This document shows positions 7,556 through 27,290 of a stretch of 64,000 nucleotides of DNA, piece after piece. The position numbers and the translations under genes are program-made. The stretch spans positions 2,923,261-2,987,260 of the forward strand of contig NZ_CP047204.1 in NCBI RefSeq assembly GCF_030408735.1. The letters are read 5' to 3'. The notes under the pieces are model-generated. The model was not told the origin of the DNA and made no database searches. It worked only from the letters and a program-made list of their open reading frames with translations. Source of the DNA: Corynebacterium faecale. GTDB lineage: Bacteria > Actinomycetota > Actinomycetes > Mycobacteriales > Mycobacteriaceae. Position 1 is the first letter of the stretch. Every line of letters starts with the position of its first letter.

Positions 7556-8980
7556 TCAGGGGGTAGGCCGTGGCGGCAGGGGACGGGTCGCCGGGCCATT
7601 GAGAATCTCCCCGTCAACGGTGAACCGTGAGGCATGGCAGGGGCAATCCCACGTTCGTTCCGCCCCATTCCATGCCACCTGACAACCAAGGTGGGTGCAC
7701 GCACTGGACACCGCATGAAGCTGGCCATCCTCATCCCGGTAACCGGCGACCTTCTTCCCACAGGAGTTGACGATCCCGCCCTCACCGGGCGCCAGATCAG
7801 TGATGTCCGGCTGCTTCAGGCTGAGCACACGATCACCAACCATCCTCGCGGCCACCCGGGTGTTCTCGGTGAGGAACTTCGGTGCAGCGGCAAAAGGCTT
7901 GACGCGGGTGGTGGAGAACAGTCCCGCCCAGGGATTACGACGTTGCCCGATGGCATCGGTGATGAGCATCCCAGCGAGTGTGCCGGCTGTCAGGCCCCAC
8001 TTCTTCAGACCAGTGGCCACATAGACCCGCTTCGATCGCGCATTGACCCGTCCGATATAGGGGACACCGTCATCGGGCATATAGTCCTGGGCTGACCACT
8101 TGTGCTCGAAGGATTCCACCTTCCAGTGCTTCTGGACAAACTCACCCAGCTGCTCATAACGCTCCGGTTGGGCCTTGGGGGAACCGGTGTGATGGCTTTC
8201 TCCCAACACCATCAACAACTCACCACCGTCATGGGGCACAGACCGGATGGAGCGCATCGGGGAACCAACCGCCATCAGACTGGCACCGGGAAGATCGCCC
8301 TCCACCCGTGTGGTGAGCACATAGGAACGGGAAGCGTGAGCGCGGATAAACAACCCAGCGCGGTCGAGGAACGGCATGAGGGTGGCCACCACGACATGCC
8401 CAGCCCGAATCTGCCCCCGTGGGGTGTGGACGATGCAACCACCATCATTTTCATCCACATCGGTGCCCCGGGTATTTTCATAGATCTCCACCCCGGCCTC
8501 CGTGGCCAGGCGGGCGAGGCCGGCGGTATAGCGTCCCGCATGGAATTCCGCCTGATTATCAAAACGCATCCCACCGTGGGTGGGGAAGGGCAGCGGCACA
8601 TCCTTATCCAGGAAGGCGGGCAGGCCAGCATGCTTGGCAGCCCTGGTCTCAGCCTCCAGGAGCTTCCACTCCGAGGCGTTGGTGGCGTAGATGAAAGATG
8701 AGCGACGACGGAAATCACAGTCAATACCTTCATCGACGAAACCCGCGATGCGTTCCTTGGCTGATTCCATGGCCATGGCATAGTGGCCGGCACTGTCACT
8801 GCCGTGGGTCTTGGCGAGGCGGGCATAGGTGCGATGATGCTGGCTGGTTACCTTGCCGGTGGTGTATCCGGTGGTTCCGGTGCCGATTCTGCCCTGGTCA
8901 ATCAGACACACCGATCTACCCTCCCGGGCGAGCAGCAGGGCAGTGGTGAGCCCGGTTATGCCACCTCCGATCACTGCCAC
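7556..8980 (-). CDS. FAD-dependent oxidoreductase with C-terminal Rieske [2Fe-2S] domain, N-terminus frameshifted
   Basis: 474 readable residues from a GTG at 8980. The protein opens directly with the FAD-binding loop (AVIGGGITGLTTALLLAREG), has a DAO-type substrate domain, and ends with a Rieske cluster: CTHLGC and CPCHASRF provide the Cys-His/Cys-His ligands. This family oxidises amines or related compounds with an iron-sulfur relay; the substrate is not known. The natural N-terminus appears to lie in another frame upstream (see 8981-9081). The reading frame is blocked by a TGA at 8996-8998, so the GTG at 8980 is only a rescue start. A protein starting there would lack about 36 residues ahead of the first beta strand. 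It may be inactive, or the shift may be a sequencing error. Confidence 0.7.
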   Translation of the reverse strand: MAVIGGGITGLTTALLLAREGRSVCLIDQGRIGTGTTGYTTGKVTSQHHRTYARLAKTHGSDSAGHYAMAMESAKERIAGFVDEGIDCDFRRRSSFIYATNASEWKLLEAETRAAKHAGLPAFLDKDVPLPFPTHGGMRFDNQAEFHAGRYTAGLARLATEAGVEIYENTRGTDVDENDGGCIVHTPRGQIRAGHVVVATLMPFLDRAGLFIRAHASRSYVLTTRVEGDLPGASLMAVGSPMRSIRSVPHDGGELLMVLGESHHTGSPKAQPERYEQLGEFVQKHWKVESFEHKWSAQDYMPDDGVPYIGRVNARSKRVYVATGLKKWGLTAGTLAGMLITDAIGQRRNPWAGLFSTTRVKPFAAAPKFLTENTRVAARMVGDRVLSLKQPDITDLAPGEGGIVNSCGKKVAGYRDEDGQLHAVSSACTHLGCQVAWNGAERTWDCPCHASRFTVDGEILNGPATRPLPPRPTP

Positions 8981-10283: not shown

Positions 10284-12578
10284 CTACGCCGGAAGCAGAT
10301 CCGAGGGTTCACCATGTGTGGTGATCACAAGCTCGTCACGCGCACGGGAGGCCGCCACATACAGCAGTGCGCGTTCCATCTGGAGGGCTTCTTCGCGCTC
10401 GGCTTCGGCCAAACCCGCCATCACCAGCTTGAACGGCAGGACATCCTGGGTGATGCCCAGCAGCACCACGTGGGTGAATTCCATGCCCTTGGCTCCGTGC
10501 ATCGTCATCACGCTGACTGCTTCGCGTGATGCCAATTCTGCGTTCTTGGTTTTCACCGCCTGGATGCCATGATCTGCCAGACCATTGACCGCGCGGTTAA
10601 TCAGGGGGCGGGTGCGGGTGAGCACACCGATGTGGGCATCGTCGTCCCCGTCCTGCCATCCGGCTATCAATTCGGCCACTGCAGAAATCTCTTCGCCTTC
10701 GGTGGCGAAGCGGAGCAGTCGTGGCAGGGGACCGGAGCGGGCGGAACGGTAACCGTGGGTGGAGTCCTCCTCGCCTTCAGAGTCGATCCATTCACCGGTG
10801 AGCACACCGAGTGCATAACCCAGGTTCTCCCGGGTGGTGCGGTAGTTGAGTGTCAGGCGCCGTGAGGCACGCCCGCGGGTCTCAATGCCAAAGCGGCTGA
10901 GCACATAGCGCTGGCCGTAGATCCTCTGGTGGGAGTCTTCGGCGAGGAAGATGTCATTTGCACCCGGTCCAACCGAGGCACGGAGGAATTTCCAGTGGCC
11001 GGCGTGGAAGTCCTGGGCTTCGTCGATAAGCACGTGATCGAAGGTGCGCTGGCCGGTGGACTGGAAACGGTTGTCCAGAACCACAGCAGCGATGGTGGCC
11101 AGCCCGACATAGGAGAACTGGCCATCACGTGCCGTGGACTTCATGAAGGCTTCTATCAGTGGCCAGACCTGTTTGCGTTGTGCGCGGTTCAGGGAGGTGC
11201 CGCGCCCCGGGCGCGGAACCCGGAGGTAGGCAGCCTGCGTGGTGATCTGGTTGGCCAGCACCACGGCTTCGAATTCCTGGGAGAGAAAGGTTCGGTTGGC
11301 GATCTCCGGCGACAGATCCGGCCCAGCCAAGAGGAGTGCATCCATCCAGTGCTGTTTGGTGTCATTGTCAGAGAGCACACGGGCCTGGCGGGAGGCCCTG
11401 CCCATCACCTGCTCGGTTGCGGCGACCAACTCAGACAGGGCGGCATCATCAAGGATCTTCCGCACGAGGGCATCAATGCCACTGATCCACAGACCGCGTT
11501 CACCGGGTTCACCCGCTTCGGGGAAGGCGGGGTTGAGCGCATTCATCTGGGATTTGAGGCTCTCCGCAAGCCCCCGGGTAAAGGTGGTGAGAAGGACGCG
11601 GGGTGGGGCGCTATCAAGCATCGGTGTGGCACCGTTCGAGGTGACCAGGCGGTTGGCGCGGTGAACCACCACCACGGTCTTGCCGGTGCCAGCACCACCG
11701 GAGACGCGGCCGGCGCCGGAGAAGTTCTGCTCCACGATTGCCTGCTGATCCGGGTGGATGAACACGCGCCAGGAGTGGAAATCACCGGAATCGATGACCT
11801 TACGCAGTTCATCGGTATTCACGTTTTCGATATAAGCGAACTCCATGCGGGCGCCGGGCTTCTTCAGGCCCTCGATGATCGCCTTGTCCGAGTTGCGTTC
11901 CTCCTCGGTCAACGCGTCGGTGGTCTTGATGCCCAGGCTTTCACGTATTTCCTCGATGGTGAAGCCCGCGACGATACCGAGCAGCGCATCGCGTTCCCAT
12001 GCCGGGCTGCCCTCGAGCACATCCTCGATATTGTCCTCGGAGTCCAGCCCCATCACCACCTGGGTGGCTGCGGGTTCGATGCCGAGCTCCTGCTCCAGCA
12101 GCTCCGGCGTGTATCCACGGTTCTCAAATGCGTCACGGGGCTTAGGCAGGTCAACGGTGACCTCCTGCTCGGCCTGATGGTGCGCGGTTGCCGCTGCCTT
12201 CTCTGCTTTGCGACGCGATTCCAGGTCCGCGGTGGTTTGACGTACTGGCGCCGTCTCCTCAATCAACCGCGTGATGCCGTTGACCGGGTTCACATCGAGA
12301 CGAATCTTCTTAGCCTTCTCGATGCCCTCATCATGCGGGTACACACCAGCTACAATGAAGTGTTGTTGAAACTCGTCGGTGAGTTCAAACATCACAGCCC
12401 GGTACTGCAAGTTGACGCGGCCGGTGCGGGCGCGGGGATCAACACTGCCGATGATCGGTTCCACGTTCAGCGCCGGGGAAGTGGGGTCCTGGCCTAGCTT
12501 GTCCAGGAAGTCCATGGTGACTTTTTTGATGCTGCCATCCAGATTGAGTGAGCCATGGATACTGATTGACACAGTCAT
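10284..12578 (-). CDS. UvrD-like superfamily 1 helicase of the defence operon
   Basis: 764 residues. The first ~280 residues lack helicase motifs and include an acidic/basic linker. The motor follows: Walker A GGAGTGKT (about residue 296), Walker B VLIDEAQDFH (about 519), the LNYRTT motif, MTMHGAKGMEF (about 701) and the closing motif YVAASRARDELVI (about 742). UvrD-type enzymes unwind DNA 3'-5'. The start lies 13 bases after the stop of the 2102-residue helicase, so it is the last gene of the operon and probably works with it. No nuclease motif was noticed. It differs from housekeeping UvrD/PcrA in its long N-terminus. Confidence 0.85.
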   Translation of the reverse strand: MTVSISIHGSLNLDGSIKKVTMDFLDKLGQDPTSPALNVEPIIGSVDPRARTGRVNLQYRAVMFELTDEFQQHFIVAGVYPHDEGIEKAKKIRLDVNPVNGITRLIEETAPVRQTTADLESRRKAEKAAATAHHQAEQEVTVDLPKPRDAFENRGYTPELLEQELGIEPAATQVVMGLDSEDNIEDVLEGSPAWERDALLGIVAGFTIEEIRESLGIKTTDALTEEERNSDKAIIEGLKKPGARMEFAYIENVNTDELRKVIDSGDFHSWRVFIHPDQQAIVEQNFSGAGRVSGGAGTGKTVVVVHRANRLVTSNGATPMLDSAPPRVLLTTFTRGLAESLKSQMNALNPAFPEAGEPGERGLWISGIDALVRKILDDAALSELVAATEQVMGRASRQARVLSDNDTKQHWMDALLLAGPDLSPEIANRTFLSQEFEAVVLANQITTQAAYLRVPRPGRGTSLNRAQRKQVWPLIEAFMKSTARDGQFSYVGLATIAAVVLDNRFQSTGQRTFDHVLIDEAQDFHAGHWKFLRASVGPGANDIFLAEDSHQRIYGQRYVLSRFGIETRGRASRRLTLNYRTTRENLGYALGVLTGEWIDSEGEEDSTHGYRSARSGPLPRLLRFATEGEEISAVAELIAGWQDGDDDAHIGVLTRTRPLINRAVNGLADHGIQAVKTKNAELASREAVSVMTMHGAKGMEFTHVVLLGITQDVLPFKLVMAGLAEAEREEALQMERALLYVAASRARDELVITTHGEPSDLLPA

Positions 12579-12591
12579 TTAAGTGTCCTTC

Positions 12592-15500
12592 CTACGAGTT
12601 CAACAGTGCGGTGGGGATGTCATCGGCGCTGAGCGAATCCGCATGCAGCGCGGTCCAGCCCTTGTTTAGAAGTACGGCATCGGCTTCATCATCCGCTTCG
12701 AAGAGGAGAACAACCTTCTCCTGCGGCCACACCAGAACGGTGGCCACGGATTCCAATTCCTCGCCGAGCACCTCGGTGGGAGTGACGCCGGCGCTTGCGA
12801 GCGTGCGCAGCGCCTTTTCCACTTCCATATCGTCAGCGAATTCTTCAAAGGCGTCCTCCCAACCGGCAGCCACGGCTGCGTGCTTATCCACGCCAACCTC
12901 ATCAGCTGCCGCGACCTCCACTGGGGAAGTGGCAGTCTTGTTGGTGGACACCACCAGTGCATCATCAGGGGCCAACCACATGAGGTTGGCAAGCGTGAGG
13001 AAGGTATTCCAGACATCCTCGGGAAGATCGTCTGGGCCGTCGGTGAGGAGTTTGAGTTCCTTAGCGCGGAGTTTCTTGTTGCCCATGATGCAGCGGAGCT
13101 GGATCTGATTCATCAGGGTGCCCACGGGGTGCCCATCCTGTTTCGAGGGGGCGTGCGAGAACACATGCAATGCCATCGCATGCGCATACTCAGACCAGGC
13201 TGGTTTCGTGGGTTCTGCAAGATAGGCCAGGAGGAGATCCACGGGGGACCCCTTCATCAGCTTCAATGAGGCCTGATCCAATATGGGGTTCCTGCTCACC
13301 AGCGCCTCAGCCTTTGGATGTACCCACGCAGGTTCTTCAGTTACTGGGTCGCCGAAGCTGTCGAGGTCTTTCCACGTCAGGTTCCAGGGCAGCACCGGAT
13401 CCAGTTCATTGGTCAGGCGCGTGCGCTTTTCAATATCGGAATGAACCCGGAAGGCAGTAGCAGAAATGTGGGCTGATTTACCGTCGAGGAAAACGCCCAC
13501 TGAACGGTGATTGCCGTTGAGGGGTTCAAAGAAGAAGTCAGGGCGGGTGTAGACATACTCCCGCTCGGCACTCATCCGCCACCGCATTCCACCGGTGAAG
13601 GTGATGTCCAGTTGAGGTCGGCCATCAAAGACACGGTCCACGATGGTGGCGTGACGGGCCTCCAGTGCCTTGCGGATCAATACCCGGAAGCGGAGCTCCA
13701 GCTTGGACTCTTCTGAAGGGGCAGGACGGGATTCCTGAATGTTCCACTGCGTTGTGGTCGGATCCACGTTCTCATCCGGGGCGGAGGTATCCAGCAGGAT
13801 AGCACTCAATGCGCCCTCCGCAGCGGCGCGAGACGTCACTTCCATGGAGCGACTGCGGACATAGGGGAGGAGGCAGTCCGGGCAGGCCAGTCGGTGATCA
13901 TTCTGGCATTCGCAGGAGTTCACCCGCTCCCAGGCTCGGCTGAGCAGGTTGTGCACCGACTCAGGATCAGTGAACTGGGAAAGGTAACCGGTGCCACCGG
14001 GAACCTTGTCATGGAGGAGGAGCGCATCTACGGAACCACCGTCCTGGCGTGCAACCTGAACCGTGGCCACATCCAGGTGGGTTGGATCGCCACCCAATAC
14101 CTCCTTGAAGCCGAGTTTGATCGCAGCAATCAGGCTCGGCACGGTGAGGGTGTCAGCGGCACTGGTGAAGCGGTCCGGGATCAGCAGGAGAACACCCTGA
14201 GTGCGCAGTGTGCGTCCGAGTGCGAAGGCGACGGTGTCTTCTTCGGACTCATTACGCTGTGGGCACCAGGGGCGGTGATCATGCCAGGTGTTGGAACCGG
14301 CCTCAGAGTCCAGGTGCCCGCAGTGCTTGCAGACCCGGAAGAGCGGGGCATCAATCTCACCGCCGCTCAAGGGCAGTTTCTGCCCATTGCCCTGACCGAG
14401 GTTGAGCCAGCGGATCTCCACCTGCCGCAGGTGCTCCACGCCGAAGCCCTCCGTGAGGTACCAGGATGCACCGCGGCCACCATCGGGAACAGTGAAACTG
14501 ACATGTTGGTGGAAGCGGGCGGAGTAGCGGTCATCGCGGTTGTCGGAAATGATGGCGCGGGTCTGCTCCACCTCGGATGAGACCTTGCGCATCTGCACCA
14601 CATCGATGATCTGCCCCTTGTCTGCAAATCCTGGCGATCCACATTCCGGGCAGGAACCTGGGGTGTGATTCTCCCCAAGGAGGATTGCTGAGTAAGAACA
14701 AGAAGGACACATCCGCCACTGTTCGATGGCTGATCCCTGATGGCCGATCTCCACGACGTCGATGGTGGCGGCAATGCCCTGGGCATAGAACGTGGCGCCT
14801 GGCGCGAGCTCGAAAAGCGCGGAGGAGACACCGCGGGAGTAGGAATAGGCTTCAGTGTCAAAGACCATTTCCTGCGGATTGAACTTGGACACCGCTACGG
14901 ATAGTTCCACGGAATCATCCAGGAGGGTGAAGTTGGGCAGCAAACCGAAACGCTCCATGGACCCAATCCAATGCTGGCCCTCCACGATGGATTGCAGTTG
15001 ATAATTCACATGCCGGAGGGAGGCTCTGATGATCCGCTTTTCTTCTTTGAGTTCACGATCATGCTCATCAGACCGGAGGCTGAGTTCGTCGAGTCGCTCA
15101 TTCAGGAGACCGCGACGGGAGTGGAGATCATATTGTTCGTTTTTCCATGTTTCACGTGAAACATTGATCTTTCCGATGAGGGAGTCCGCCTCATCACTGA
15201 AGGCCCAGGAACGGAGACTTGCCACCGTGTCGCCATCGACATGACCGTTCAGAGAGCTGATGAAGGAATCAAGAAGATCATCAATCCCGGTGCGCACCCG
15301 GGCGACGATGATGTCAGCCAGGGCCGGTTCGCCGGGTATTTGATTAAACACATCCACCGCGGTGGCGAGTTCAGGGATTTCCGCCTGGGTATCGATTGAA
15401 TCCACCAGATAGGCGGTGAACTGACGGTTGAGGATTTCCACCGCCGACAGGAACGCCACCGGGGGAGTCACCGAACCAGAGATCACCGACAACGGCTGGT

Positions 15501-18500
15501 TCAGCTTGGGAAGTGTGATGCCACGGCCCCGCACCAGGGCGATCACCAGGGAGTTACCGGTGAGGCGCCCGGCGCGACCCACACGCTGCACATAGCTGGC
15601 CACCGAAGTGGGCAAAGAGGCAAGCATGACGGTGGATAGATCACCGATATCAATACCCATCTCCAGCGTCGGGGTGGCCACGAGAACGTTCGGGGCATTG
15701 GGTGCGGTGGTGGTGGAGGAACGGAAGGACTGTTCCAACTGCAGGCGGACCTTCTTGTCCAGCAAACCGGTGTGTTCCTTGGCCACCACGGTGCGTGGTT
15801 CCCTGGCCGAGTAGAGGCGACGATAATAATTGTCCTCCACTTGCAGGGCTGCCTGATGCCCCGCACAGCCGGGAGTGAAACATGGATGTCCATCCAGACG
15901 ATCGCGGACAGTGGCGGAGACACCGATGCGGGAATGGCAGATGGTGCATTCCAGAATGCATGGTTCAGCTTCTGCCCCGATGCGGATGCGGTCCGCGCTC
16001 AGACCGTAGATGGTGCCGCCGGAGTCAGTGGGCGTTGAGTCAAGGATGTGGCGTCGGGAGAGCTCGTCGAAAAGCTTGGCCACCGCGGTGGCCGCATCGT
16101 GTGTGCCCAGACCAAGCAATTTGGCCGTCCAGATGGCAAAGCGCCCCCGTGGACTTCCCAACGGGGTGGTGCCGGTGTCACGTCGGGCAGCGGTGGTCAG
16201 CTGTGGGCCCACCCGGGGAAATTCTGGTGAACCGCCTCTGGGGAAAGCGGGGATGCCGCGTGCACGTGCCTCCCGACGGTTCAACAGATACGCATTGCCA
16301 TCATCTCTGAGATAGGGCTGCAACCATTCATGATGGACACCGCCACGCAGGCGGGTCATCTCCAGCACGCCCTGGACCCACGCCAATTGCAGGGCGCGGT
16401 TGTTCATCTCCAGGGTGGGGGAGGCGACGGCTGTGAGCGCCTCAGCTGCGGCTGTGAGCGCGGCTGCCTCCGGGGTGTCCACGCTGATGGTGAGCGAACC
16501 CGTCAGCGCCAGGGAGCGCGTGAGATGCGCACGTTGGCCGAACTCCAGCACCAGGTCAAAGCCGAGGCGTCTGCGCGCCTCGCGGTTTGCTTCTCGACGC
16601 TCCGAATCCGTGGCATCAGGGTGCCAATAACTTTTGAACTGATCAAAATCCACCAGGTCCGGTGGCAAGAGTTCATAGCGGGAACGGGGATCATCGGCTA
16701 GCTCCATCAACCGATCCGGGAGCTGATCCAGGGTGACTTCACCATCACCGACCGCGCGCCGAGTGAAGGTACGCAGCGCGAAAGCTCGCGAACGAGCCTG
16801 GACGAAACCGGCGCGGTGGGCGGCATCCTGAACAGAGTCGGTGAAGATGAGTGTTTTCTTCTCCGCGGGATCCAACTCGGGCATCCCGAAAAGATTGGAC
16901 AGCGCCACGGAGAGCAGAGTGGCCACCGAGGAGCCGATAAAGCGGATGGAATCATTCTCACCGCAGGAAGGACAGCGCTGTTCACCGGCAAAATCATCCG
17001 CATCCGGGCCGAAGTGCGTGAGCACCGGGATGGACTGTTCACGCTCTAGTTCCTCATCGCGCGGGGTGCGGGTGGAAAGTTCCCGGGTATCGGTGTGCAG
17101 CCACAACACGGCAGATTCACCATCGGTACCACGCGGCCCTGCAACAGCCCGCCCGGCGTCAATGGCATTACGGTATTCAGAGGTGGCATCCAAGAGTGGG
17201 CGTTGACGTTCCCGGTTCTTCAGCGATCCGGTCCGGATGGCCGGTCCTTCCATCAGGGGAGCATCGGTGCCAGGTTCCAGCTCCGTCATCCACCCGGCAC
17301 GACCACAGCTGCGGCAATAACAGGCGGGCAGCCAGGGAACGTTGTCCTCGCCGCTCTCTTCCGCCGGGCCGTCATCAAACCACCGGAACAGCTGACCATC
17401 CTCAGGGATAGCAATGGCCCGGTCAATCCGCGAGACCTCACGAACCCAGAGATGGGTCTCCACACCGGGGAGCCTCTTGCCACCCCACTTATCCTCAACA
17501 CCCCACGCGGACCGCAGATACGCAATAGCGGTCAGTGCATGGGTGATGAACTCCCTGGACTTTTCTTCTCCCAGCAACCGGAACGTGGAACCCAGTACCA
17601 GTTCGGGCAGCGTGCTGGTCTGATCCTGTTCACGGTGGGTCATCGGCACTGCCGTAGAAGCATGCTCAAGCAGGGCAGCGGTGAGTTCATGATCAGCGAA
17701 GTTGGCGATGGCTGGTTTCAGATCTGGCGCGCAGTGCCAGATCTTTTCACAGAACACCTCAAAGGTGCGCTCGGCATAACCGTTAGCTGCGTCCTCTTCT
17801 GCGATGAGATCCAAGATTTCATTGATCAACTCAACAGCGGGGAGGTCTCGGCCCTCTGCGTCCAGTGTGGAACTACCGAAGGTGGCAACGATCTCCTCCC
17901 GCCACTCATCAATGGTGAGAGTCTTCTCTGAGACGATGGCATGATCGGCGAAGCGTTCACCAAAGATGGTGTGCGCGAATTCCAGCATGGGGTTGGTGCC
18001 GTCACCGGGGGCCTTATCGGATCCCAGGGTGGCTGAGGTGGCCACCGGCACTACCTGTCCAAGAGGGCGGGCAGCGGCCTCCCCATCAAGGAAACCCGTT
18101 GGCTGATGCGACTTCAGCTGTAAACCCAGACGACGCAGCAACAACGCCACATCCGTGCCCTGAGCGCCGTCATAGGTATGGAACTCATCCAGAACCAGAT
18201 ACTGCAAAGACTCCGCGGAATGTTCCCAAATCTCACGGTCATTACTGCGCAGCAGTAGCTGATCCAACATCTTGTAATTTGTGAGCAAAAGATCCGGTGG
18301 ATCCTGACGCATCTTCTCACGGTTGGTGATCAAAGACTTCTTACTCACCTTGGTAGCACCACTACCGGAGGATTCACCGGTGTAGATACCTGCGGTGACA
18401 CCTTCCAACTCTGGGTGCTCGGTGAGCAGCTGGGCCAGGCGATCAGCCTGATCATTGGCCAGGGCGTTCATCGGATACAGCAACAGCGCTTTTACTCCAC

Positions 18501-18900
18501 GCTGCCCCTGGGCCCGCATGCGTCGGGCATGATCCAGGATGGGGTAGAGGAAGGACTCTGTCTTACCCGAGCCGGTGCCGGTGACCACCAAGGTGGGATC
18601 AGGACGCCGCTCGCCGTGCTCATCAACCGACCGCAACCTGCGAAACGCTTCCGCCTGGTGGTGGTAGGGCACGAAGTGTTCCGGTAACCATGACAGCACA
18701 CCCTCCCAGTCCCGCGCCTGGGCATAGGGGAGACGACTCCTCACATACGGTCCGTGGAACATCCCGGCATCAGCATCACCGAGGAACCGCTTGAGCGCCT
18801 CCCCGGTCTCCTGATCCGCAAGCGAGAAGCTGGTGGTCAAGTATTCCGTGAGACCTTCAAGGATATTGCCGGCCACATGGGCTGGGATGAGCGTGGACAT
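12592..18900 (-). CDS. Giant DEAD/DEAH helicase with DUF1998 and C-terminal nuclease-like domain (DrmA/DrmB- or MrfA-like)
   Basis: 2102 residues from ATG 18900, preceded by TTGGAGATCC. Order: Walker A GTGSGKTESF (about residue 105); DEFH box LDEFHTYDGAQG (about 235); a long insertion with zinc-knuckle-like pairs CRSCG and CPSCG; helicase C half with TPTLEMGIDIG and QRVGRAGR (about 1080-1110); further Cys pairs (CPSC...CPEC about 1400, CKHCGH about 1530); DUF1998 with HDKVPGGTGY (about 1633) and CPDCLLPY (about 1672). A last domain holds RPDFFFEP and GVFLDGKSAH, resembling the Vsr-like end of such helicases. DISARM systems carry a helicase (DrmA) and a DUF1998 protein (DrmB) as separate genes; here both features are in one chain, close also to YprA/MrfA. 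It carries a perfect parS within the coding sequence. Confidence 0.85.
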   Translation of the reverse strand: MSTLIPAHVAGNILEGLTEYLTTSFSLADQETGEALKRFLGDADAGMFHGPYVRSRLPYAQARDWEGVLSWLPEHFVPYHHQAEAFRRLRSVDEHGERRPDPTLVVTGTGSGKTESFLYPILDHARRMRAQGQRGVKALLLYPMNALANDQADRLAQLLTEHPELEGVTAGIYTGESSGSGATKVSKKSLITNREKMRQDPPDLLLTNYKMLDQLLLRSNDREIWEHSAESLQYLVLDEFHTYDGAQGTDVALLLRRLGLQLKSHQPTGFLDGEAAARPLGQVVPVATSATLGSDKAPGDGTNPMLEFAHTIFGERFADHAIVSEKTLTIDEWREEIVATFGSSTLDAEGRDLPAVELINEILDLIAEEDAANGYAERTFEVFCEKIWHCAPDLKPAIANFADHELTAALLEHASTAVPMTHREQDQTSTLPELVLGSTFRLLGEEKSREFITHALTAIAYLRSAWGVEDKWGGKRLPGVETHLWVREVSRIDRAIAIPEDGQLFRWFDDGPAEESGEDNVPWLPACYCRSCGRAGWMTELEPGTDAPLMEGPAIRTGSLKNRERQRPLLDATSEYRNAIDAGRAVAGPRGTDGESAVLWLHTDTRELSTRTPRDEELEREQSIPVLTHFGPDADDFAGEQRCPSCGENDSIRFIGSSVATLLSVALSNLFGMPELDPAEKKTLIFTDSVQDAAHRAGFVQARSRAFALRTFTRRAVGDGEVTLDQLPDRLMELADDPRSRYELLPPDLVDFDQFKSYWHPDATDSERREANREARRRLGFDLVLEFGQRAHLTRSLALTGSLTISVDTPEAAALTAAAEALTAVASPTLEMNNRALQLAWVQGVLEMTRLRGGVHHEWLQPYLRDDGNAYLLNRREARARGIPAFPRGGSPEFPRVGPQLTTAARRDTGTTPLGSPRGRFAIWTAKLLGLGTHDAATAVAKLFDELSRRHILDSTPTDSGGTIYGLSADRIRIGAEAEPCILECTICHSRIGVSATVRDRLDGHPCFTPGCAGHQAALQVEDNYYRRLYSAREPRTVVAKEHTGLLDKKVRLQLEQSFRSSTTTAPNAPNVLVATPTLEMGIDIGDLSTVMLASLPTSVASYVQRVGRAGRLTGNSLVIALVRGRGITLPKLNQPLSVISGSVTPPVAFLSAVEILNRQFTAYLVDSIDTQAEIPELATAVDVFNQIPGEPALADIIVARVRTGIDDLLDSFISSLNGHVDGDTVASLRSWAFSDEADSLIGKINVSRETWKNEQYDLHSRRGLLNERLDELSLRSDEHDRELKEEKRIIRASLRHVNYQLQSIVEGQHWIGSMERFGLLPNFTLLDDSVELSVAVSKFNPQEMVFDTEAYSYSRGVSSALFELAPGATFYAQGIAATIDVVEIGHQGSAIEQWRMCPSCSYSAILLGENHTPGSCPECGSPGFADKGQIIDVVQMRKVSSEVEQTRAIISDNRDDRYSARFHQHVSFTVPDGGRGASWYLTEGFGVEHLRQVEIRWLNLGQGNGQKLPLSGGEIDAPLFRVCKHCGHLDSEAGSNTWHDHRPWCPQRNESEEDTVAFALGRTLRTQGVLLLIPDRFTSAADTLTVPSLIAAIKLGFKEVLGGDPTHLDVATVQVARQDGGSVDALLLHDKVPGGTGYLSQFTDPESVHNLLSRAWERVNSCECQNDHRLACPDCLLPYVRSRSMEVTSRAAAEGALSAILLDTSAPDENVDPTTTQWNIQESRPAPSEESKLELRFRVLIRKALEARHATIVDRVFDGRPQLDITFTGGMRWRMSAEREYVYTRPDFFFEPLNGNHRSVGVFLDGKSAHISATAFRVHSDIEKRTRLTNELDPVLPWNLTWKDLDSFGDPVTEEPAWVHPKAEALVSRNPILDQASLKLMKGSPVDLLLAYLAEPTKPAWSEYAHAMALHVFSHAPSKQDGHPVGTLMNQIQLRCIMGNKKLRAKELKLLTDGPDDLPEDVWNTFLTLANLMWLAPDDALVVSTNKTATSPVEVAAADEVGVDKHAAVAAGWEDAFEEFADDMEVEKALRTLASAGVTPTEVLGEELESVATVLVWPQEKVVLLFEADDEADAVLLNKGWTALHADSLSADDIPTALLNS
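15148..15163. promoter_or_regulatory. parS site inside the giant helicase gene
   Basis: Exact TGTTTCACGTGAAACA within the coding sequence, read on the minus strand as Asn-Val-Ser-Arg-Glu-Thr. About 49 kb from the origin end. Confidence 0.93.
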
Positions 18901-19068
18901 GGATCTCCAACCGAAAAATCACCGAGGGAAGAAAACAACTGTTCTGCCTAGAAAGATTACCCGGCAGCCTTGACACGCTTCCGAAGTCCAAGGATTTTCA
19001 CTGGTTAAGCCTTCAGAAACCGAAATTCAAGCAGGCATTTCCTAATTACATTTATAGGATTATAATTT
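18901..19068. other. Junction between giant helicase and silent cassette
   Basis: 168 bases that contain the helicase ribosome-binding site (GGAG near 18907) and, at 19021-19068, a very AT-rich stretch with TATAAT at 19061 (plus strand) and TATAAA-like words on the minus strand. It may supply a promoter for the helicase gene, because the operon transcript would otherwise cross the antisense cassette. Confidence 0.4.
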
Positions 19069-19148
19069 AACATTGATTATGAAAAGGACTATGGCACCTG
19101 GACCACCCCATCCGGCCCCATACCCGTCGCCTCCACCTACCGCATCGC
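19069..19148 (+). repeat. Left 80-bp inverted repeat of the methylase switch
   Basis: Matches 20534-20613 in inverted orientation at 79 of 80 positions (the mismatch is T at 19121). Identity ends abruptly at the left (19068/20614) and falls off at the right just after 19148. It forms the start of the silent cassette. Confidence 0.92.
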
Positions 19149-19845
19149 ATGGCGAACCATGGCGGCGACGACCGGTTACCGAACTATTTATCCGGCAATC
19201 ATTCCTGAAGGTGCTTACCATGTCGATCTTGTAATGAGTGCGGGGCATGTTGAAACTAACGCAAAAACCGTCTTGGCAGGTTTAGTTCTCTCTTCGCTGC
19301 TGATTGATTTCCAGTTCAGATCAACGGGATCTGGGCATATACGTGGCAGCAATGTTGATTCTCTCCCTTTGCCAAAAGACAACTCTCTAATCCCCCTAGC
19401 TGTACGAGCCTACCTGCGACTGAACTGTCTTACTGCAGCTTATGCTCCGCTATGGAAAGAGATAACCGGTGAGCCTTGGACAGCTGATGTGCCACTGCGT
19501 AAAGGCCGAGAGCGACAGGAAGCACAGAATGAGATCGACGCCCTCGTCGCCCTTTCCCTGGATATCACCGCGGATGAGTTGTGCATGATCTACCGGACGC
19601 AGTTCCCCGTTATGCGTCGCTATGACCGGGAGGATCTCTACGACGCTAACGGACGTAAAGTGCCGAACGGTATTAGAAAGGCACATCAACAGAATGGTTG
19701 TGAGGAAATCCTTTCAACAAGTCAACGAACCTGGGTGCATCCTCAATCTAAAAAGGAGTATGTCTACGAGTATCCCTTCTCCTCACTTGATAGGGAGAAT
19801 GGGCTCCGAGAAGCCTATGGTCGTTTCCAGGGGTCAGTTATCTAG
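19069..19845 (+). pseudogene. Silent inverted copy of the methylase C-terminal (specificity) domain
   Basis: 258 codons with no start codon or ribosome-binding site, beginning exactly at the 80-bp repeat and ending TAG at 19843. The protein aligns throughout with residues 1280-1538 of the neighbouring methylase: ITGEPWTADVPLRKGRERQ, ADELCMIYRTQFPVMRRYD and RTWVHPQS are shared. The middle (PAIIPEGAYHVDLVMSAG, FRSTGSGHIRGS) differs strongly. It lies on the opposite strand, tail-to-tail, overlapping the methylase 3' end by 12 bp. Length is nearly the same (777 against 780 bp). The open frame has been kept with no internal stop, which suggests it is used at times rather than decaying. It looks more AT-rich than the methylase N-terminal part. 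Confidence 0.88.
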
Positions 19846-22800
19846 TAATACTTCTTCATACTTGAGATAGGCCGTCCGTAAGTCCTTCTCGCGATCCCGC
19901 ACTTGGAACGGATACTCAAATAGGTAGGTGACTCCAGATTGGGGATGAATCCAGGTGCGTTGCTCCTGGGTGAGTTCTTGACCTTCCTGCAGTTTTTTCT
20001 GCAACACCATCACTTCTTTGGGTACTTTGCGCCCGTGACGATCGAACCTATCTTCCAGGTCATAGCGACGCATTACTGGGAACTGTGTCCGGTAGATCAT
20101 GCACAGTTCATCGGCGGTAACCCCGAGTGATAGAGCGACAATCCCATCAATCTCGATCTGAGCTGCGCGACGATCGATGCCTTTTCGCAATGGGACATCT
20201 TTCGTCCAAGGTTCACCAGTGATCATTTCCCATAGCTGGGAATAAGCAGTGGTCAGGGAATTGAGCTGCAAATATAGTCTCTCAAGCAGCTTCTTTAATT
20301 TGGGATCAATCTGAAAAGGTATGCGGCGAACAATGTCATTAAATATATGGCTGGAGCCACTTGAACGAACAAAGTAGTCGCTTAACATTGAACTCATCAC
20401 GGCTCCAAGCTGCACCGTTTTTTGGGCCGTTTCGGCTGAACAGGCGTTCACGGTGTGAACGTGTGTAGAGCCTGGCGGAATAATTGAGGGATACACGGTT
20501 CTGAAACCAGTAGTAGCCGCCATTTCCCGCCAGGCGATGCGGTAGGTGGAGGCGACGGGTGTGGGGCCGGATGGGGTGGTCCAGGTGCCATAGTCCTTTT
20601 CATAATCAATGTTTTCGGACAAGTCACGATTGGGCTGGTAGGCCGTTGCAGGTATGAAGTCTTCCGGTAGCGCCTCAAGGTCAATCTCAGCCCAATCCTT
20701 GTTGCTACTCATGGTGGGATTGGGTTGTTTGATCATTGGCGTTGATACTCCGAGATGAGGCCCTTGAAGAATTACATCATCCCATGAAGCTGGGTGCCCC
20801 CACCCGACATCAAAATAGCCTTTCTTTTTATCGGCGCTTTCATGCCACCCACTAGAGAACGACAGTCCCAGTTCTTTTACTCTCGGGGCGGCAGCCAGTT
20901 TCTCAAGCACTGCAGCGGCTTCGGTGTTCACGGTATAAACCATTCGGGCTTCCAAGAGGGACGTAGATTCATCTTCGAGGATGGACTTCCATACCTTCAA
21001 CACATGTTCATCTACCTGTAAAATGCGATCACGGTGTGGGCGACGATCCCAGTTTCCTTCATCATCTTTCAAACCAGGCAGAGGCCCTGAACCATCGTGG
21101 TTGAGAGAATCCGCCACAGTGTGTGGATGGTAAAGAGAAGCAGCATTCAAGAACGACACTGATTCACCAGGTTTGCTGTAAACGTTTATCCCGTAAGAGA
21201 CCAAGTTATGAACATCGAATAGCCTTAATTCATTAATAAATTGCCAATGTCTGCGCAGCCGTAAGTATGCCCCTCTACGAAGTGAAGCTGCTTTCTTTTC
21301 GGTGAAGTGGGATTCGGGGTGAATCAATGAAATTACGCCGGTATCAGACGCAATGGTCCAAGTGCGTTCCATAAATCCCCGGTAGAGATCCGGCTGCTGC
21401 CCCCGGAGATGAGGATACGTAGCTATATCACCGAGGAATGCTGCGGCGGCTATGGTTTCCCCGACTCCTCGCAAAATCACTTGAGTGGCTTCAACATGGT
21501 GTCGAAGTCCCTCGCGGCGTTCACGCTTTTCCTGCTGGGTGGGTTTATGGGCCAATGAGAACCACGGATCCACTTCCGAAGAAAGAGCGTCCAGATCTGT
21601 ACGCGGACGGACCCATGGCGGATTACCAACCTGCAGATCAAAACCACCCTGGGCAAACACGGCACCAAAATCAAGGTCCCAGTGGAAGAACCCCTGCTGC
21701 TCAGCAATACCTCGTACTGTCTCAAGCCACGGATGAGCATTGAAACACTTCTCAATGCTCAATGCGTTGGCGAACTGCCAGTCAGAATTCTCTGCAGCAT
21801 TCAGGTCCGCCCATGAACTGTTCTCATTGATCAGATACTGCCCGGCATCTTTCTTCTTCACTGCAACATCAGTTCCAAGGATGTCACGCAAAGCTGCCAG
21901 CCACTCGTCAAGGTTAGGCAGGGAAGTGCGATCGGAGTGACCTTCAGTGGGAACGACATCCAATGGCCAGAACCACAGTGCACACCAGGCGTCCATCACT
22001 AGGCGAAGCCGGTTGTAGGCACCATTGAGATTCTCAAAGAGATCCTTTTCGATCTGTTCCCGCGTGACGTTCTTGGCGGTTCGATCATTTTCCCGACCCC
22101 AGATATCGATGTCACGGCGAGCCTGGTCTTCCGCAATACGTAGACGAATGAGGGCGAAGCGCCATAGGGTTTCCACACGTCGGGCCAGGTTCTGCAGAGC
22201 AGTAGTCTGCGTCTTATTCGGCATCAACCGGATCTGCTTGCGCCACTCCTTGAGTGCCTTCTGCTCTTCCGCAGCGATGTCCTTGAGATCCTTGGCATCA
22301 GCTACAGCACCCCAGCCATTGGATGGAAGAAGGAAGTGATGAATGCCCTCAGCAAGCATCACCCCGGTCTCGCCAGCATCAACGGCTTCCGCGATATCAG
22401 TCAAAGACCGCCTCTTAGGAACAGCCGTCAACCATTCCTTCTTCTTCAATTGGTTCAGCGCGTAAGTAGAACGTGAAGCACCAACAAGGGAGTTTCCTCG
22501 GCGCAGATGCAATCCGAACCAGGGGGCTTTGAGATCTGCCGTCATGGTGTCCAACCAGAGCGAGATTTCGGCCAGCTCGACGGCAGTGGCGTTGAGGTCC
22601 ACGCCGTAGACCTGGTGCAGCGCGATGTGTGCTTTGACCTTTTGCAGTTCCTTCGTGCGATCTTCTGAAGGAATCTGCTGGTCAAGCTCTTGCTGACGAA
22701 GTTTGATGTACAGCTCCGCCAACTGACGAACTGCCTCCACGGCGAAGGCACCAGAGCCCATGGCGGGTTCACAGATGGTCAGGCTGAGGACATCTTCAGC

Positions 22801-24450
22801 TGTGGTGATTCGTCCTTCTTCTTTAAGGACCTCAATGGCCTGTCCAACCGTGAACTCAGTAAGCACCTGTGGAGTATAGAAAGAAGCAGAGCGCTCACGG
22901 TCGCGGGAGGACTGGCGGAAGACGAAGGAGCCGCGTGCATGTCGGCGACGCTGGCGCATGGTGCCGCCTTCAGCAGCTTCAACTTCCTCTTCAACGAAGC
23001 TGTCCTGGGGGACGGTATCCGCCTTGGCTACCGGCAGGACCCATGAGCCTTTCTCCGGGTTGCCCTTGGGGGCAACCTCAAAGAGGTCTTCTTCGGCGAT
23101 AAAGCCAGTGTAGGACATCAGCCCCTCATAGACCTGTCCGAGCTCAGTGACACCCAGGGTGGCGTAGGAAATGAAACCACGGTCCCGGCCGGCCTGCTGC
23201 TTGGAAAGCAACAGGTTCTCCAAGACCTGGTTGAGGGTGGCATTGGAGAGTTTTACCCGGTCTATAAGAGCCGTGGCTGTGGATTGGAAGAGATCCGCCG
23301 AGAGGTTGCGGAACTGCAGGCCCTTTTCACCTGCATCAGGATCAAAATCCGGATTCTCGGGATCCTCCGGATCATTACCCTTATCAACTAGTTTGAACAG
23401 CACCTGCAGTGATCCATAAAGGTGGGTGCCACTGCGGGCTTGTTGGGTGACTGGGGGAGTAAGGATCAGTTCCCGGAGACGGGAGAGCCCATAACCGTCG
23501 TCATACTCAGGTGTGCCGGTAGGGAGAATTTCTAGTTCCGGAGAAGCCTCCGCGAAGAGCAAGAAGAGAATGCGATAGAGGTAACGCAGGGATTGTTTCG
23601 CCAGCTCATTGCCGTCAATGTCCTCAATGCTGATGCCTTGTTCCCGGTGGCGGGTAAGAACATCATTGCCAAGAAGTTCAATGGATTCCCGTACCGCGTT
23701 GCGGAGCTCACCGGAAACCTTGACGGCATGCTCACGGGATTCTTCGATGGTGGAAGACCACCAGGTAGTGCCATCAGCTGCGCGTTCAATGTTTTCCCTG
23801 GCCAGGGCCACTGCAGCGCGCTGCATCTCACCCTTGGCTTTGGTTTCATTTCTTTCCACCACCAACGCCAAGTTGATGGCCAGATGGCGGCCCAGGGGCC
23901 AGGACTCGCGCTCAGCAAGCACCACCCAATCTCCGGCCAGGACCACCACGAATTCCGGTGGGGTGTCTGATAGGAAAAGATCTCCCACTAATTTGGCTGC
24001 GGTGGCGGTGTCATCCTGCTTGTCTTTGACCAGCACACCACCGATCAGCGGGGTATTGGTGAGATCCTCTGGGGTAGCGATGGACTCCGCAGCAATGACA
24101 ATCATGCTGCCGGCGTTTCCGGCCCAGCCCTGGTAGGAAATAGTGTCACCCGCACGGTGCAGCGTCCGGAGCTCAGGTACGCCATAACCAAAGGCCTGAC
24201 GGATTAGAACATGGGCATCCTCCGGTGAGGAATCCTCATCCAGCAGGGAGAGTTCGGTCTCCAGCTGGCCCCGCATACCGGTGAAGCGGGTCCACGGGGA
24301 GGGGTGACCAGACTCGTCTTCTTCCTTCTTCCAATCCCGGATACACTCAACTACCCGTTTGGAGAAGGACGCACCTTTTGTCTCATCGGTGGTGAGAAAG
24401 TGATCGCTAATCCACTCTTCAACGTTGACGATGGAATCATATGCGGCCAT
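19834..24450 (-). CDS. Eco57I-type N6-adenine DNA methylase of a DISARM-like system, with switchable C-terminus
   Basis: 1538 residues from ATG 24450, with AAGGAGG overlapping the end of the upstream gene. A long N-terminal region precedes the AdoMet motif CEPAMGSGAF (about residue 560), a second motif VYGVDLNATAVELAEISLW, and the catalytic N6-adenine motif NPPW (about 943). The C-terminal ~260 residues (from about 1280) include CMIYRTQFPVMRRYD and match a silent inverted copy next door; this region probably carries target recognition. In DISARM the methylase marks host DNA so that the helicases act on foreign DNA only. The gene lies 5 bases downstream of drmD and is probably coupled to it. 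Its last ~780 bp look more AT-rich than the rest. Confidence 0.88.
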   Translation of the reverse strand: MAAYDSIVNVEEWISDHFLTTDETKGASFSKRVVECIRDWKKEEDESGHPSPWTRFTGMRGQLETELSLLDEDSSPEDAHVLIRQAFGYGVPELRTLHRAGDTISYQGWAGNAGSMIVIAAESIATPEDLTNTPLIGGVLVKDKQDDTATAAKLVGDLFLSDTPPEFVVVLAGDWVVLAERESWPLGRHLAINLALVVERNETKAKGEMQRAAVALARENIERAADGTTWWSSTIEESREHAVKVSGELRNAVRESIELLGNDVLTRHREQGISIEDIDGNELAKQSLRYLYRILFLLFAEASPELEILPTGTPEYDDGYGLSRLRELILTPPVTQQARSGTHLYGSLQVLFKLVDKGNDPEDPENPDFDPDAGEKGLQFRNLSADLFQSTATALIDRVKLSNATLNQVLENLLLSKQQAGRDRGFISYATLGVTELGQVYEGLMSYTGFIAEEDLFEVAPKGNPEKGSWVLPVAKADTVPQDSFVEEEVEAAEGGTMRQRRRHARGSFVFRQSSRDRERSASFYTPQVLTEFTVGQAIEVLKEEGRITTAEDVLSLTICEPAMGSGAFAVEAVRQLAELYIKLRQQELDQQIPSEDRTKELQKVKAHIALHQVYGVDLNATAVELAEISLWLDTMTADLKAPWFGLHLRRGNSLVGASRSTYALNQLKKKEWLTAVPKRRSLTDIAEAVDAGETGVMLAEGIHHFLLPSNGWGAVADAKDLKDIAAEEQKALKEWRKQIRLMPNKTQTTALQNLARRVETLWRFALIRLRIAEDQARRDIDIWGRENDRTAKNVTREQIEKDLFENLNGAYNRLRLVMDAWCALWFWPLDVVPTEGHSDRTSLPNLDEWLAALRDILGTDVAVKKKDAGQYLINENSSWADLNAAENSDWQFANALSIEKCFNAHPWLETVRGIAEQQGFFHWDLDFGAVFAQGGFDLQVGNPPWVRPRTDLDALSSEVDPWFSLAHKPTQQEKRERREGLRHHVEATQVILRGVGETIAAAAFLGDIATYPHLRGQQPDLYRGFMERTWTIASDTGVISLIHPESHFTEKKAASLRRGAYLRLRRHWQFINELRLFDVHNLVSYGINVYSKPGESVSFLNAASLYHPHTVADSLNHDGSGPLPGLKDDEGNWDRRPHRDRILQVDEHVLKVWKSILEDESTSLLEARMVYTVNTEAAAVLEKLAAAPRVKELGLSFSSGWHESADKKKGYFDVGWGHPASWDDVILQGPHLGVSTPMIKQPNPTMSSNKDWAEIDLEALPEDFIPATAYQPNRDLSENIDYEKDYGTWTTPSGPTPVASTYRIAWREMAATTGFRTVYPSIIPPGSTHVHTVNACSAETAQKTVQLGAVMSSMLSDYFVRSSGSSHIFNDIVRRIPFQIDPKLKKLLERLYLQLNSLTTAYSQLWEMITGEPWTKDVPLRKGIDRRAAQIEIDGIVALSLGVTADELCMIYRTQFPVMRRYDLEDRFDRHGRKVPKEVMVLQKKLQEGQELTQEQRTWIHPQSGVTYLFEYPFQVRDREKDLRTAYLKYEEVLLDN
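20534..20613 (-). repeat. Right 80-bp inverted repeat of the methylase switch
   Basis: Lies inside the methylase gene and codes residues from about 1280 onward (Asn-Ile-Asp-Tyr-Glu-Lys-Asp-Tyr). It is the inverted partner of 19069-19148 and is in the same codon phase as the cassette copy. Confidence 0.92.
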
Positions 24451-24455
24451 GAGGT

Positions 24456-27290
24456 TTAGGCCTCCTTCTGCTGATGAGCGGGCACGATCAGTGCAAGTGG
24501 GCGGATGAGTTCACGGTCGGGTTCGAGGGAGTTGGCGAGTGAACGTTGTTCGTCGATAAGCTTTGTGGCCAGCGCAAGGCCCGAGGAGCGCTGGCCAGCG
24601 CTCCTCCCGGATTCCCAGGCCTCGGAACGTTTCAGCCAGTGCCCGATACGGTTTTTGGCTCCGCTGCGGGCAGCCATCATCATCGGATTGAGCTGGCCAC
24701 GGGCAGCTTCCACGGTGTCAGCGATGAGCTTGTTGGTGGCATCCGGAATCACGGCGTCACCCATATTCACGGCCGTGTCTCCCAGGCCGATGTCATGGAT
24801 CCACCTGACCACATCGGGCAGTACCTGGGCCTCATAACGGCTGGTAGCGGCGACAAAGGCGCGGGAGACCACCTGGCCACGGCGGTTGGTCAAGGTGGCC
24901 ATGAGCAGGACAGTTGGTTCAGCGACGTTGCCGGAAATGGCTGGGATGGTCCGGCGGCTCAGGCTAGCCAAGGCACGGTCGGAGGCCCATTCACTCACCG
25001 GATGCAGCGGTCCGAGGAAGTGGGCGGTGGGCCAGGTGGAACCGGCATCACCAGTGCGGGCAGCCTGGAGGCGTTCATCACCGCGCATCGCAGAGGTGGC
25101 CAGGATGAGCTTCTCTTTCACCTTCCGATCAGCAACATAATCCTGGGGAAGAAAATCGAGGCGCCGGCGTAGATCCTCCGGGGGCGTCAGCTCAGCGATG
25201 TCATTCTTGTGCTCAATGTAGCCAACCCCGCCACGGCCGATGGTGTCCTGGGGGACACCGTTGAAGGCCTCCGACAGAGCATCGTTGAGGTAGTCGATCT
25301 CGCGTGGGTACAGGCTGCTCAAGGTTGCTTGGGGTTCAAGCGTGGCAGCATCTTCTTCATCTTCATCGAGGCCGAGTTCCGCGAGCAACCAATCAATCTC
25401 GTCCATGCCCTCAGGCAGATCGCCACCAATCAGATCCTCCGGGTTGGCCACCACATCATCGAATTCACGGATGCCGCGGAGTACATCGCGGATGGTGTCT
25501 TCCTCCATCTTCTCTGAGTGCTTGCCCATGAGGGAGGAGGCATCACCGAGGAGTTTGTGGGCTTCATGTTCACGCTCAATGAGGCGTTCCAGCACATGGA
25601 GTTCACCAACTTTGCCGCCATCGGTTGGGTCGAGCAGGAGAGTGGCGATCTGCGGATTATGGGTCTGCCCATAACGATCAATACGGCCGTTACGCTGCTG
25701 GATTCTGATCAATGACCAGGGGATATCGTAGTGCACCAGGTTGTGGCACAGGGAATGCAGGTTCACACCTTCAGAGGCGACATCGCCGGTGATCAGGACG
25801 CGGATGGGGGAGTCGGTGCGCTTGAAGGCATCAACAAGCCTCATCTGTTCCTGGTCCGTCAGGCCACCGTGCATGATCTCCACGGCTGCCTTGGGCAGTT
25901 TGAGGTACTTGGTCAGGTTCTCCTGCAACCAATGCAGGGTGGCGACGCGCTCAGAGAAGATCACCACGCGGGTGTCTGAGTTCTTGGCAATGCCGATCTC
26001 CTGCAGATAGAGCACCAAGTTGCGGAACTTGGCGGAGTTCTCCGGCGTGATCGCGGTGTTGAGTTCCCGGAGGCGTTCCAGGGCGGTGCGTTCTGGCTGT
26101 GACGGGCCGCGTTTGAGGCGGTTATTGAGTGTTTCATCGAGCGCGGCGGGGGAGGAGAGGAAGGCCTTGACCAGAGTCCACGGGAAGAGACGGTCCTTCA
26201 CCGGGTTGTCCGCGCCCGGAGTAATCCAGGTGGAGTCGAGTTCACGCGCAACGGCATCTTCTTCCGGGGAAGCATCAACCGGGATGTTGCGGGGTTCATT
26301 GCGTTCGGCCCACTTGGCACCGACCACGCTGGCTACCTCTTCGCTGTTGCGGTGGCGACGGATGATCAGGCGCTTGGCGGCCTCATGATCGATCGTGCCG
26401 TCCGGTGCCACTGACGTGGGATCCAGCAGGCGGAGGATCTCCTTGAAGGATTCTGGATCACCATTGTGCGGGGTGGCAGACGCCAGGATCAGGGCATCGG
26501 TGGTGGGGGCGAGGGTGCGGGCCAGCTGGTTGTTCTGGGTGCCCACGTTGGTGGCGTTGTGGATCTCATCCATCACCACGGCATCCCAGTGGACTTTCTC
26601 CAGCTGGGCCCGATATTTGGGTGATTTGAGGGTGTCCATGGAGACGATCACCCGTGGGAAATACGTGAACGGGTTGCGGGAGGCCGGGAGTTTCTGGCGA
26701 ACCTGTTGGATACCCACGGAATCCAAACGCACCAGGGGAATGGCGAAGCGGGTCCACATCTCCTGCTGGAACTGTTCCATGATGTGGCGAGGGGTGACCA
26801 CCAAGATGCGTTCACCGCGGCCACGTCGGATGAGTTCCGCCAGGATCATGCCCATCTCCAAGGTCTTGCCAAGGCCCACGGCATCAGCGATGAGCACGCG
26901 GGGACGCAGGTTGTCCGGGGAGAGGGCCTTCTTCACTGCTGCCAGCTGATAACTCAAAGGATCAGCGAGCATCTCATCGGCTACGGCGAGATCCTCCTGA
27001 TAGAGGGGAACCGGGGTCTGACGGAGTGTTGTTTCCAACCACAGGCGGGTGCGCCGATAGGCAGGGGATTCATCAGCGATGACCTCCACTGCGGTGGGGT
27101 CGAGGATTTGGATGTCTTTATCCAAGGCAGTGTAGAACGTAGCCGGTTGATCGCGCACATAATCACTCAGGCCCCGGACCTTCAGGCGGAAGCCATCAGT
27201 AGAGCGGGCGACGTTGGTGACCAGCCAAACCTCATCCCGAACTTCAATGGTGACACCGGGAGCCAGCTGATGAGTGCTTAAATCGGACAT
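24456..27290 (-). CDS. drmD: SNF2-family helicase, DrmD-like, first gene of the defence operon
   Basis: 944 residues. SF2/SNF2 motor: Walker A ADAVGLGKTLE (about residue 138), DEIH box VVMDEIHNATN (about 239), and helicase C half with FSERVATLHWL, GDVASEGVNLHSLCH and the arginine-finger motif QQRNGRIDRYGQ (about 500-540). A charged ~400-residue C-terminal region follows. DrmD is the SNF2-like subunit of class 1 DISARM, where it is encoded directly before the adenine methylase, as here. The start ATG 27290 has no Shine-Dalgarno sequence; TATATC eight bases upstream suggests a leaderless transcript. Confidence 0.85.
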   Translation of the reverse strand: MSDLSTHQLAPGVTIEVRDEVWLVTNVARSTDGFRLKVRGLSDYVRDQPATFYTALDKDIQILDPTAVEVIADESPAYRRTRLWLETTLRQTPVPLYQEDLAVADEMLADPLSYQLAAVKKALSPDNLRPRVLIADAVGLGKTLEMGMILAELIRRGRGERILVVTPRHIMEQFQQEMWTRFAIPLVRLDSVGIQQVRQKLPASRNPFTYFPRVIVSMDTLKSPKYRAQLEKVHWDAVVMDEIHNATNVGTQNNQLARTLAPTTDALILASATPHNGDPESFKEILRLLDPTSVAPDGTIDHEAAKRLIIRRHRNSEEVASVVGAKWAERNEPRNIPVDASPEEDAVARELDSTWITPGADNPVKDRLFPWTLVKAFLSSPAALDETLNNRLKRGPSQPERTALERLRELNTAITPENSAKFRNLVLYLQEIGIAKNSDTRVVIFSERVATLHWLQENLTKYLKLPKAAVEIMHGGLTDQEQMRLVDAFKRTDSPIRVLITGDVASEGVNLHSLCHNLVHYDIPWSLIRIQQRNGRIDRYGQTHNPQIATLLLDPTDGGKVGELHVLERLIEREHEAHKLLGDASSLMGKHSEKMEEDTIRDVLRGIREFDDVVANPEDLIGGDLPEGMDEIDWLLAELGLDEDEEDAATLEPQATLSSLYPREIDYLNDALSEAFNGVPQDTIGRGGVGYIEHKNDIAELTPPEDLRRRLDFLPQDYVADRKVKEKLILATSAMRGDERLQAARTGDAGSTWPTAHFLGPLHPVSEWASDRALASLSRRTIPAISGNVAEPTVLLMATLTNRRGQVVSRAFVAATSRYEAQVLPDVVRWIHDIGLGDTAVNMGDAVIPDATNKLIADTVEAARGQLNPMMMAARSGAKNRIGHWLKRSEAWESGRSAGQRSSGLALATKLIDEQRSLANSLEPDRELIRPLALIVPAHQQKEA

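Follow-up and report, generated by a model that had tools for sequence, protein, structure and literature searches.

ARMADA was described in 2025 as an anti-phage system (Bell et al. preprint, PMC12458937), and its type II form is defined there by a BrxHII-like helicase, a PglX-like methylase, a YprA helicase and a GajB-like helicase encoded in strict order. According to the same preprint, the YprA helicase of this type is most similar to that of Druantia, ArmD carries a RelE-like domain at its N-terminus, and mutation of the NPPW motif abolishes defence in E. coli. How the system tells self from phage is not stated in sections 5 and 6 of PMC12458937, and words starting with 'phase' or 'invert' are absent from its main text.

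Changeable specificity is described for other systems. The pneumococcal SpnIII/cod hsdS genes are accompanied by silent inverted specificity sequences with several repeat pairs of 15 to ~300 bp, and the locus harbours a tyrosine recombinase, yet switching is possible without it (PMC7096588, PMC6620402); in BREX, phase variation of pglX/brxX by homopolymer slippage has been described (PMC6326788). Amongst CC-licensed PMC papers, the titles and the starts of the abstracts yielded no description of an invertible ARMADA or DISARM methylase. Invertible specificity is in itself a known principle, from type I hsdS and, reportedly, from BREX, for which Goldfarb and colleagues are said to have described in 2015 inverted pglX pieces together with a recombinase; the case presented herein concerns armB of ARMADA. 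The set of loci presented resembles type I hsdS in its silent inverted specificity sequences and, in five of the eight relatives but not in the window itself (i.e. the whole 64-kb stretch of Corynebacterium faecale DNA analysed), in the presence of a recombinase within the locus. It differs in that type I hsdS switches a separate specificity subunit, whereas in ARMADA methylase and recognition part are fused in one protein of a helicase-based defence, and it is this recognition half that would be exchanged.

The operon and its silent armB tail

The operon runs from 27290 to 10284 on the minus strand, in the order BrxHII-like helicase, PglX-like methylase, YprA helicase and GajB-like helicase. 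The armA gene (24456–27290, minus strand) encodes an SNF2/BrxHII-like helicase that is DrmD-like, scoring 308 bits with the PADLOC DrmD model and 328 bits with the NCBIfam DISARM_DrmD model, the latter being under that model's cut-off of 610. In its present, active form armB (19834–24450, minus strand) specifies a PglX-like adenine methylase of 1538 aa, with PADLOC matches to REase_MTase_IIG (2478 bits) and DrmMI (194 bits), Pfam matches to Eco57I and MmeI_Mtase, and an NPPW motif at residue 943. The product of armC (12592–18900, minus strand) is a YprA-type helicase of 2102 aa with the Pfam domains DEAD, Helicase_C and MZB, which is nearer to DruE than to DrmA (PADLOC DruE3 269 bits vs DrmA 68 bits). 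Finally, armD (10284–12578, minus strand) encodes a GajB-like UvrD-family helicase by PADLOC and Pfam; its Pfam matches are helicase domains only, from residue 276, and the N-terminal part, where a RelE-like domain was sought, is without a match. A plasmid-borne E. coli cluster of identical order matches all four proteins of the window at 28–36 %. Taken together, the sequence of the operon fits ARMADA type II (ArmA-B-C-D). About 5 kb from its end, an AAA ATPase gene is followed by a McrBC-type gene (PF10117) at 2334–5266, likely to be a type IV restriction pair.

The first-pass annotation had called the methylase DISARM-like, a label that gives way to ARMADA type II on both gene content and gene order. 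DISARM class 1 does have DrmD and DrmMI, which are homologous to the SNF2 helicase and the PglX-like methylase of the window. Its operon is also expected to contain DrmA and the PLD-domain protein DrmC, whereas the window has a YprA protein nearer to DruE and a UvrD helicase. Membership of this class was rejected, the fourth gene being that of a UvrD helicase, no PLD match being found in the four proteins with Pfam, and DruE models far outscoring DrmA for the YprA protein. BREX likewise has a PglX-like methylase of varied sequence, as is ArmB, and the predicted fold of ArmB is BrxX-like; a BREX assignment was discarded, as the PglZ of that system has no Pfam match amongst the four operon proteins. 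Because the best PADLOC model for the methylase is a type IIG one, ARMADA may be hidden by automatic annotation.

With ARMADA type II as presented in PMC12458937, the window shares the four helicase and methylase genes, their order and the NPPW motif, and it differs by carrying, in the interval from armB to armC, a second armB tail that is silent and inverted. This silent partner (19069–19845, plus strand) spans 777 bp and is open to its stop, and it meets the active C-terminal tail of armB (19834–20613, minus strand; residues 1280–1538, 780 bp, 259 codons) tail-to-tail with a 12-bp overlap. Both are headed by an 80-bp inverted repeat. One arm bounds the silent cassette on its outer side (19069–19148, plus strand) and the other lies within armB (20534–20613, minus strand; residues 1280–1306); the two arms are identical at 79 of 80 positions and share their codon phase. 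Inverted in silico, the cassette yields an in-frame protein of 1537 aa, compared with 1538 aa at present. The near-equal open partner, the overlap, the repeat and the full-length inversion product had all been claimed from the first reading of the sequence, and each holds, with both frames verified; the further claim that the partner is promoterless receives weak backing from a simple sigma-70 consensus scan, in which no plus-strand site was found at 18800–19069.

The similarity between the arms does not continue in the 40 bases beyond them, and inward of them identity drops to ~50–60 % before climbing again towards the common C-terminus. A search of the organism's own genome with the 80-mer gives two matches, namely the two arms, and the other inverted repeats of the 64-kb window, amongst those listed, are four pairs of 32–34 nt at 71–84 %. 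No dyad with arms of at least 6 nt was found inside the repeat at the thresholds used. When the cassette was shuffled (mononucleotide), none of 2000 versions kept the silent frame open. Silent and active tails are 60 % identical over residues 1280–1532; the identity is 48 % over residues 1316–1400 and 60 % over 1401–1538. As pairs amongst other ArmB proteins have a median identity of 44 % over residues 1316–1400, the active and silent modules are about as different as those of separate species. In the alignment block 1271–1300, the mean identity of the silent copy with the aligned ArmB proteins is no more than 39 %, and hence protein conservation does not explain the 79/80 match of the arms within one genome. 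The near-identity of the arms speaks for a recent exchange, either by inversion or by conversion.

The repeat, which has its start at residue 1280 of ArmB, lies in a domain predicted to fold like target-recognition domains. The region where the active tail diverges most (20275–20505, minus strand; ~residues 1316–1392), with its silent counterpart at ~19177–19405 on the plus strand, falls within this predicted domain. Fold matches of a separate model of the domain include, amongst those listed and ordered by Z-score, M.BseCI, CamA and BrxX/PglX. Whole ArmB models superpose on BrxX with an rmsd of more than 20 Å, and weight is therefore placed on the separate domain model only. From this model, we infer that a flipped tail would change the methylation motif, and a natural exchange confined to half of the predicted recognition domain would point to ArmB as the subunit that determines the target.

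Inverted armB tails in related loci

Within the family, 401 genomes were sampled with a threshold of at least 448 bits for an ArmB-like match; at least 67 of these have such a match, and at least four of the 67, the window included, have an adjoining tail on the opposite strand. For the genus, 49 of 242 genomes have a tail match, five of which (again including the window) carry an opposite-strand tail beside armB, and a class-wide sample of 394 genomes contributed at least one further locus (G721). These cassette counts are lower bounds, since the first looks at family and class often scored two to five candidates per genome. In sum, an inverted ArmB tail occupies the space between armB and armC in at least eight further actinobacterial ARMADA loci; it was seen in seven of them and is inferred in G721, the two contigs of which break within the outer repeat. 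The others belong to Skermania sp. ID1734 (L057), Gordonia phthalatica (L058) and Williamsia sp. CHRR-6 (L059) and, within Corynebacterium, to L174, L175, C. efficiens YS-314 (L176) and L177. In all nine loci, i.e. the window and its eight relatives, the tails are inverted and tail-to-tail. Amongst 24 independently fetched ArmB loci (one of which, L039, ends inside armB), neither an inverted tail nor an ARMADA-cassette recombinase was found.

The extent of the cassette varies, starting at residue 1280 in the window vs ~1033–1038 in Skermania, Gordonia and L177. In L174 and L175 it begins at about the same residue as in the window, and both are without a recombinase in the locus; the match at the boundary is a perfect 38 nt in L175 and only 17 nt in L174. 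Two consecutive silent ArmB tails, both inverted, are present in L175 (9743–11225), and in nucleotide alignment they have 17 of 18 nt in common at the boundary and little else.

Several arrangements were left out of the cassette count, namely a piece in L061, same-strand scraps and the broken contigs of G542. In L061 (5679–9508 of C33, a second contig of G130), a diverged ArmB tail piece of residues 1209–1477 and a nearby armC lie on opposite strands, separated by an AbiEi-like gene, and the contig ends at that place. A same-strand second tail in G524 (L133) was also not counted, its armB being broken by an opposite-strand ORF of 332 aa (7587–8585) that by eye has the look of an IS30-type transposase. 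Same-strand C-terminal ArmB scraps (~residues 1400–1535) number one to three per genome in at least eight Corynebacterium genomes listed (L179, L180, L182, L183, L060, L063, G1231 and G1271), some of them containing stops, and in several of these genomes unrelated ORFs separate the scraps from armC. The scraps look like repeated tail replacement with cargo.

Recombinases and apparent traces of exchange

Five of the eight relatives encode a tyrosine recombinase (PF00589) between the cassette and armC, and these are of two different kinds; the remaining three have none in the locus. The first kind occurs in Skermania, Gordonia and Williamsia, each with a PF00589 match, and in G721 (64 % identity), the measured pairs being 64–70 % alike. 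Invariant amongst its members are R140, K167, H221, R224, H247 and Y256, which we take to be the catalytic residues of a tyrosine recombinase. The PF00589 protein of L177 is a different one and has an integrase SAM-like domain. In the four first-kind loci, the match between active and silent copies starts at one common site, with short inverted arms around AGGTTCG/AGGTTCA, and this start site is the putative core of the tyrosine recombinase.

Further relatives of the first kind, at 60 % identity or more, occur in other actinobacteria as protein database entries without gene context, and six of the 17 other matches, less similar at 40–44 % by tblastn, have no ARMADA gene beside them within 15–16 kb. 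Amongst the matches listed, the phage proteins nearest to it are integrases, from a Curtobacterium phage (48 %) and from mycobacterial and Gordonia phages (40–46 %); in an IMG/VR scan for the recombinase, 39 stretches matched a pattern, none of which encodes a relative of the ARMADA recombinase. A decayed locus is seen in L140 (G264; 8168–8980), where a recombinase fragment of the ARMADA type is followed by an armC fragment.

Williamsia provides an apparent case of inversion. Here ArmB residues 1–559 run into residues 1118–1528 in a different frame, and a piece with residues 556–1528 lies on the opposite strand, fused to residues 1026–1120 of the outer copy. The 12-bp sequence GAACATGACGGT stands at both junctions and also in the other tail copy, inside CTCGAACATGACGGTTCGGG. 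The simplest reading of this arrangement is that armB was split by an inversion, with an inner site recombining with a similar sequence close to the region of methylase motif I, although the split may instead be an assembly fault. In Skermania and Gordonia, near-identical blocks (e.g. 270/274, 231/233 and 259/263 nt) alternate with diverged ones at ArmB residues ~1056–1100, ~1180–1218 and ~1295–1332 to 1392. With several repeat pairs alternating with variable blocks in this way, segments could be shuffled in these two loci, as the set of segments exchanged would depend on the block in which the crossover falls, and three segments would allow up to eight forms. The repeat of the window (residues 1280–1306) overlaps the third near-identical block of Skermania and Gordonia, and thus the duplication in the window extends no further than the final variable segment plus the tail that follows.

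In the window itself, no recombinase or remnant of one was detected in the 168-bp gap between the cassette and armC, and the organism's own genome has no gene matching the ARMADA recombinase at an E-value of 1e-30. Three PF00589 and eight PF00239 matches are present in that genome, at most candidates for acting on the cassette, and weak recombinase matches at 62.6–62.9 kb of the window (E 0.03–0.6) were dismissed as they fall on the ribonuclease P protein gene. The outer core sequence seen in the relatives, AGGTTC(A/G)GT, has two occurrences in the window (11288 and 61763), neither of which lies in armB or the cassette. The comparison with relatives for swapped ends had a divided outcome: inverted tails were indeed found, but with the flipped protein as query, the present form matched at 70 % across the region, and none of the 120 matches listed was closer. 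Given that no recombinase is encoded in the locus and that one orientation was seen, switching in the window may proceed slowly, depend on a factor supplied in trans, or have ceased. The short Corynebacterium form (the window, L174 and L175) may rely on an enzyme of the host or on general recombination, or may by now be without any means of exchange.

Alternative readings and the proposed mechanism

The invertible specificity switch that the first-pass annotation had claimed gains from at least eight relatives with the same arrangement, five of which have a tyrosine recombinase and one (Williamsia) an apparent inversion, at a different pair of sites; where it falls short is in the window, which has no recombinase and one orientation. 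For this set of ARMADA loci such a switch is well supported at the sequence level, and for the window's own copy it is likely. Counting against it are the lack of a recombinase in the window and three of the eight relatives, the boundary of merely 17 nt in L174, and the single orientation. Some plausibility attaches to a locked descendant, in which an ancestor switched, both the recombinase and the outer stretch of the silent copy were then lost from the lineage, and the cassette is now a spare that is exchanged rarely if ever. Agreeing with such a history are the recombinase-free locus, a cassette that starts from 1280 rather than ~1033–1038 as in Skermania, Gordonia and L177, and the same short form, likewise without a recombinase, in L174 and L175. 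This is a possibility to be taken seriously, albeit the less probable course, as 79/80 arms in a poorly conserved stretch, along with the open silent frame, point to recent exchange, and pneumococcal inversion at long repeats is reported to go on without a local recombinase or RecA (PMC6620402).

A donor of gene conversion, whereby armB is altered by copying from the silent tail with no flip, would also be expected to leave homogenised blocks, and the pair of consecutive silent cassettes in L175 would suit a donor array. We nonetheless hold it to be improbable, considering that all nine loci are inverted tail-to-tail, that recombinases lie beside five of them, and that Williamsia has an apparent inversion. 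Least probable of all is an inert relic, left either by a duplication long ago or by incoming DNA that replaced the tail. This part of the genome does collect such remnants, as is evident from the same-strand ArmB scraps, some with stops, in at least eight Corynebacterium genomes listed; however, the open frame, the near-identical boundary, the placement between armB and armC, and at least eight recurrences, five of them with recombinases, are difficult to reconcile with an inert remnant.

It is thus considered fairly probable that the window carries an ARMADA type II operon with an exchangeable specificity tail on ArmB, its methylase and presumed targeting subunit. Recombination across the repeat, either inversion or conversion from the silent copy, would swap the second half of the predicted recognition domain together with the C-terminal domain. 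Cells would therefore carry one of two ArmB specificities, and the sequences used for self-marking and those attacked would both change. In related loci the adjoining tyrosine recombinase probably performs the exchange, and several repeat pairs would permit segment-wise shuffling; in the window, the locus of which encodes no recombinase, such events would be infrequent and due to general recombination, or else driven in trans. On a broader scale, we give even chances to the idea that Actinomycetota ARMADA evolved a combinatorial specificity shuffler served by at least two tyrosine recombinases, in which three variable armB segments lie between several inverted-repeat pairs and up to eight ArmB specificities would let the self-mark and the phage target vary within a clone, the window being a reduced, one-segment form. 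The two tails give matched protein pairs for motif mapping, and their exchange would raise the question of how a helicase-based system may change its self-mark without attacking its own, not-yet-remarked chromosome.
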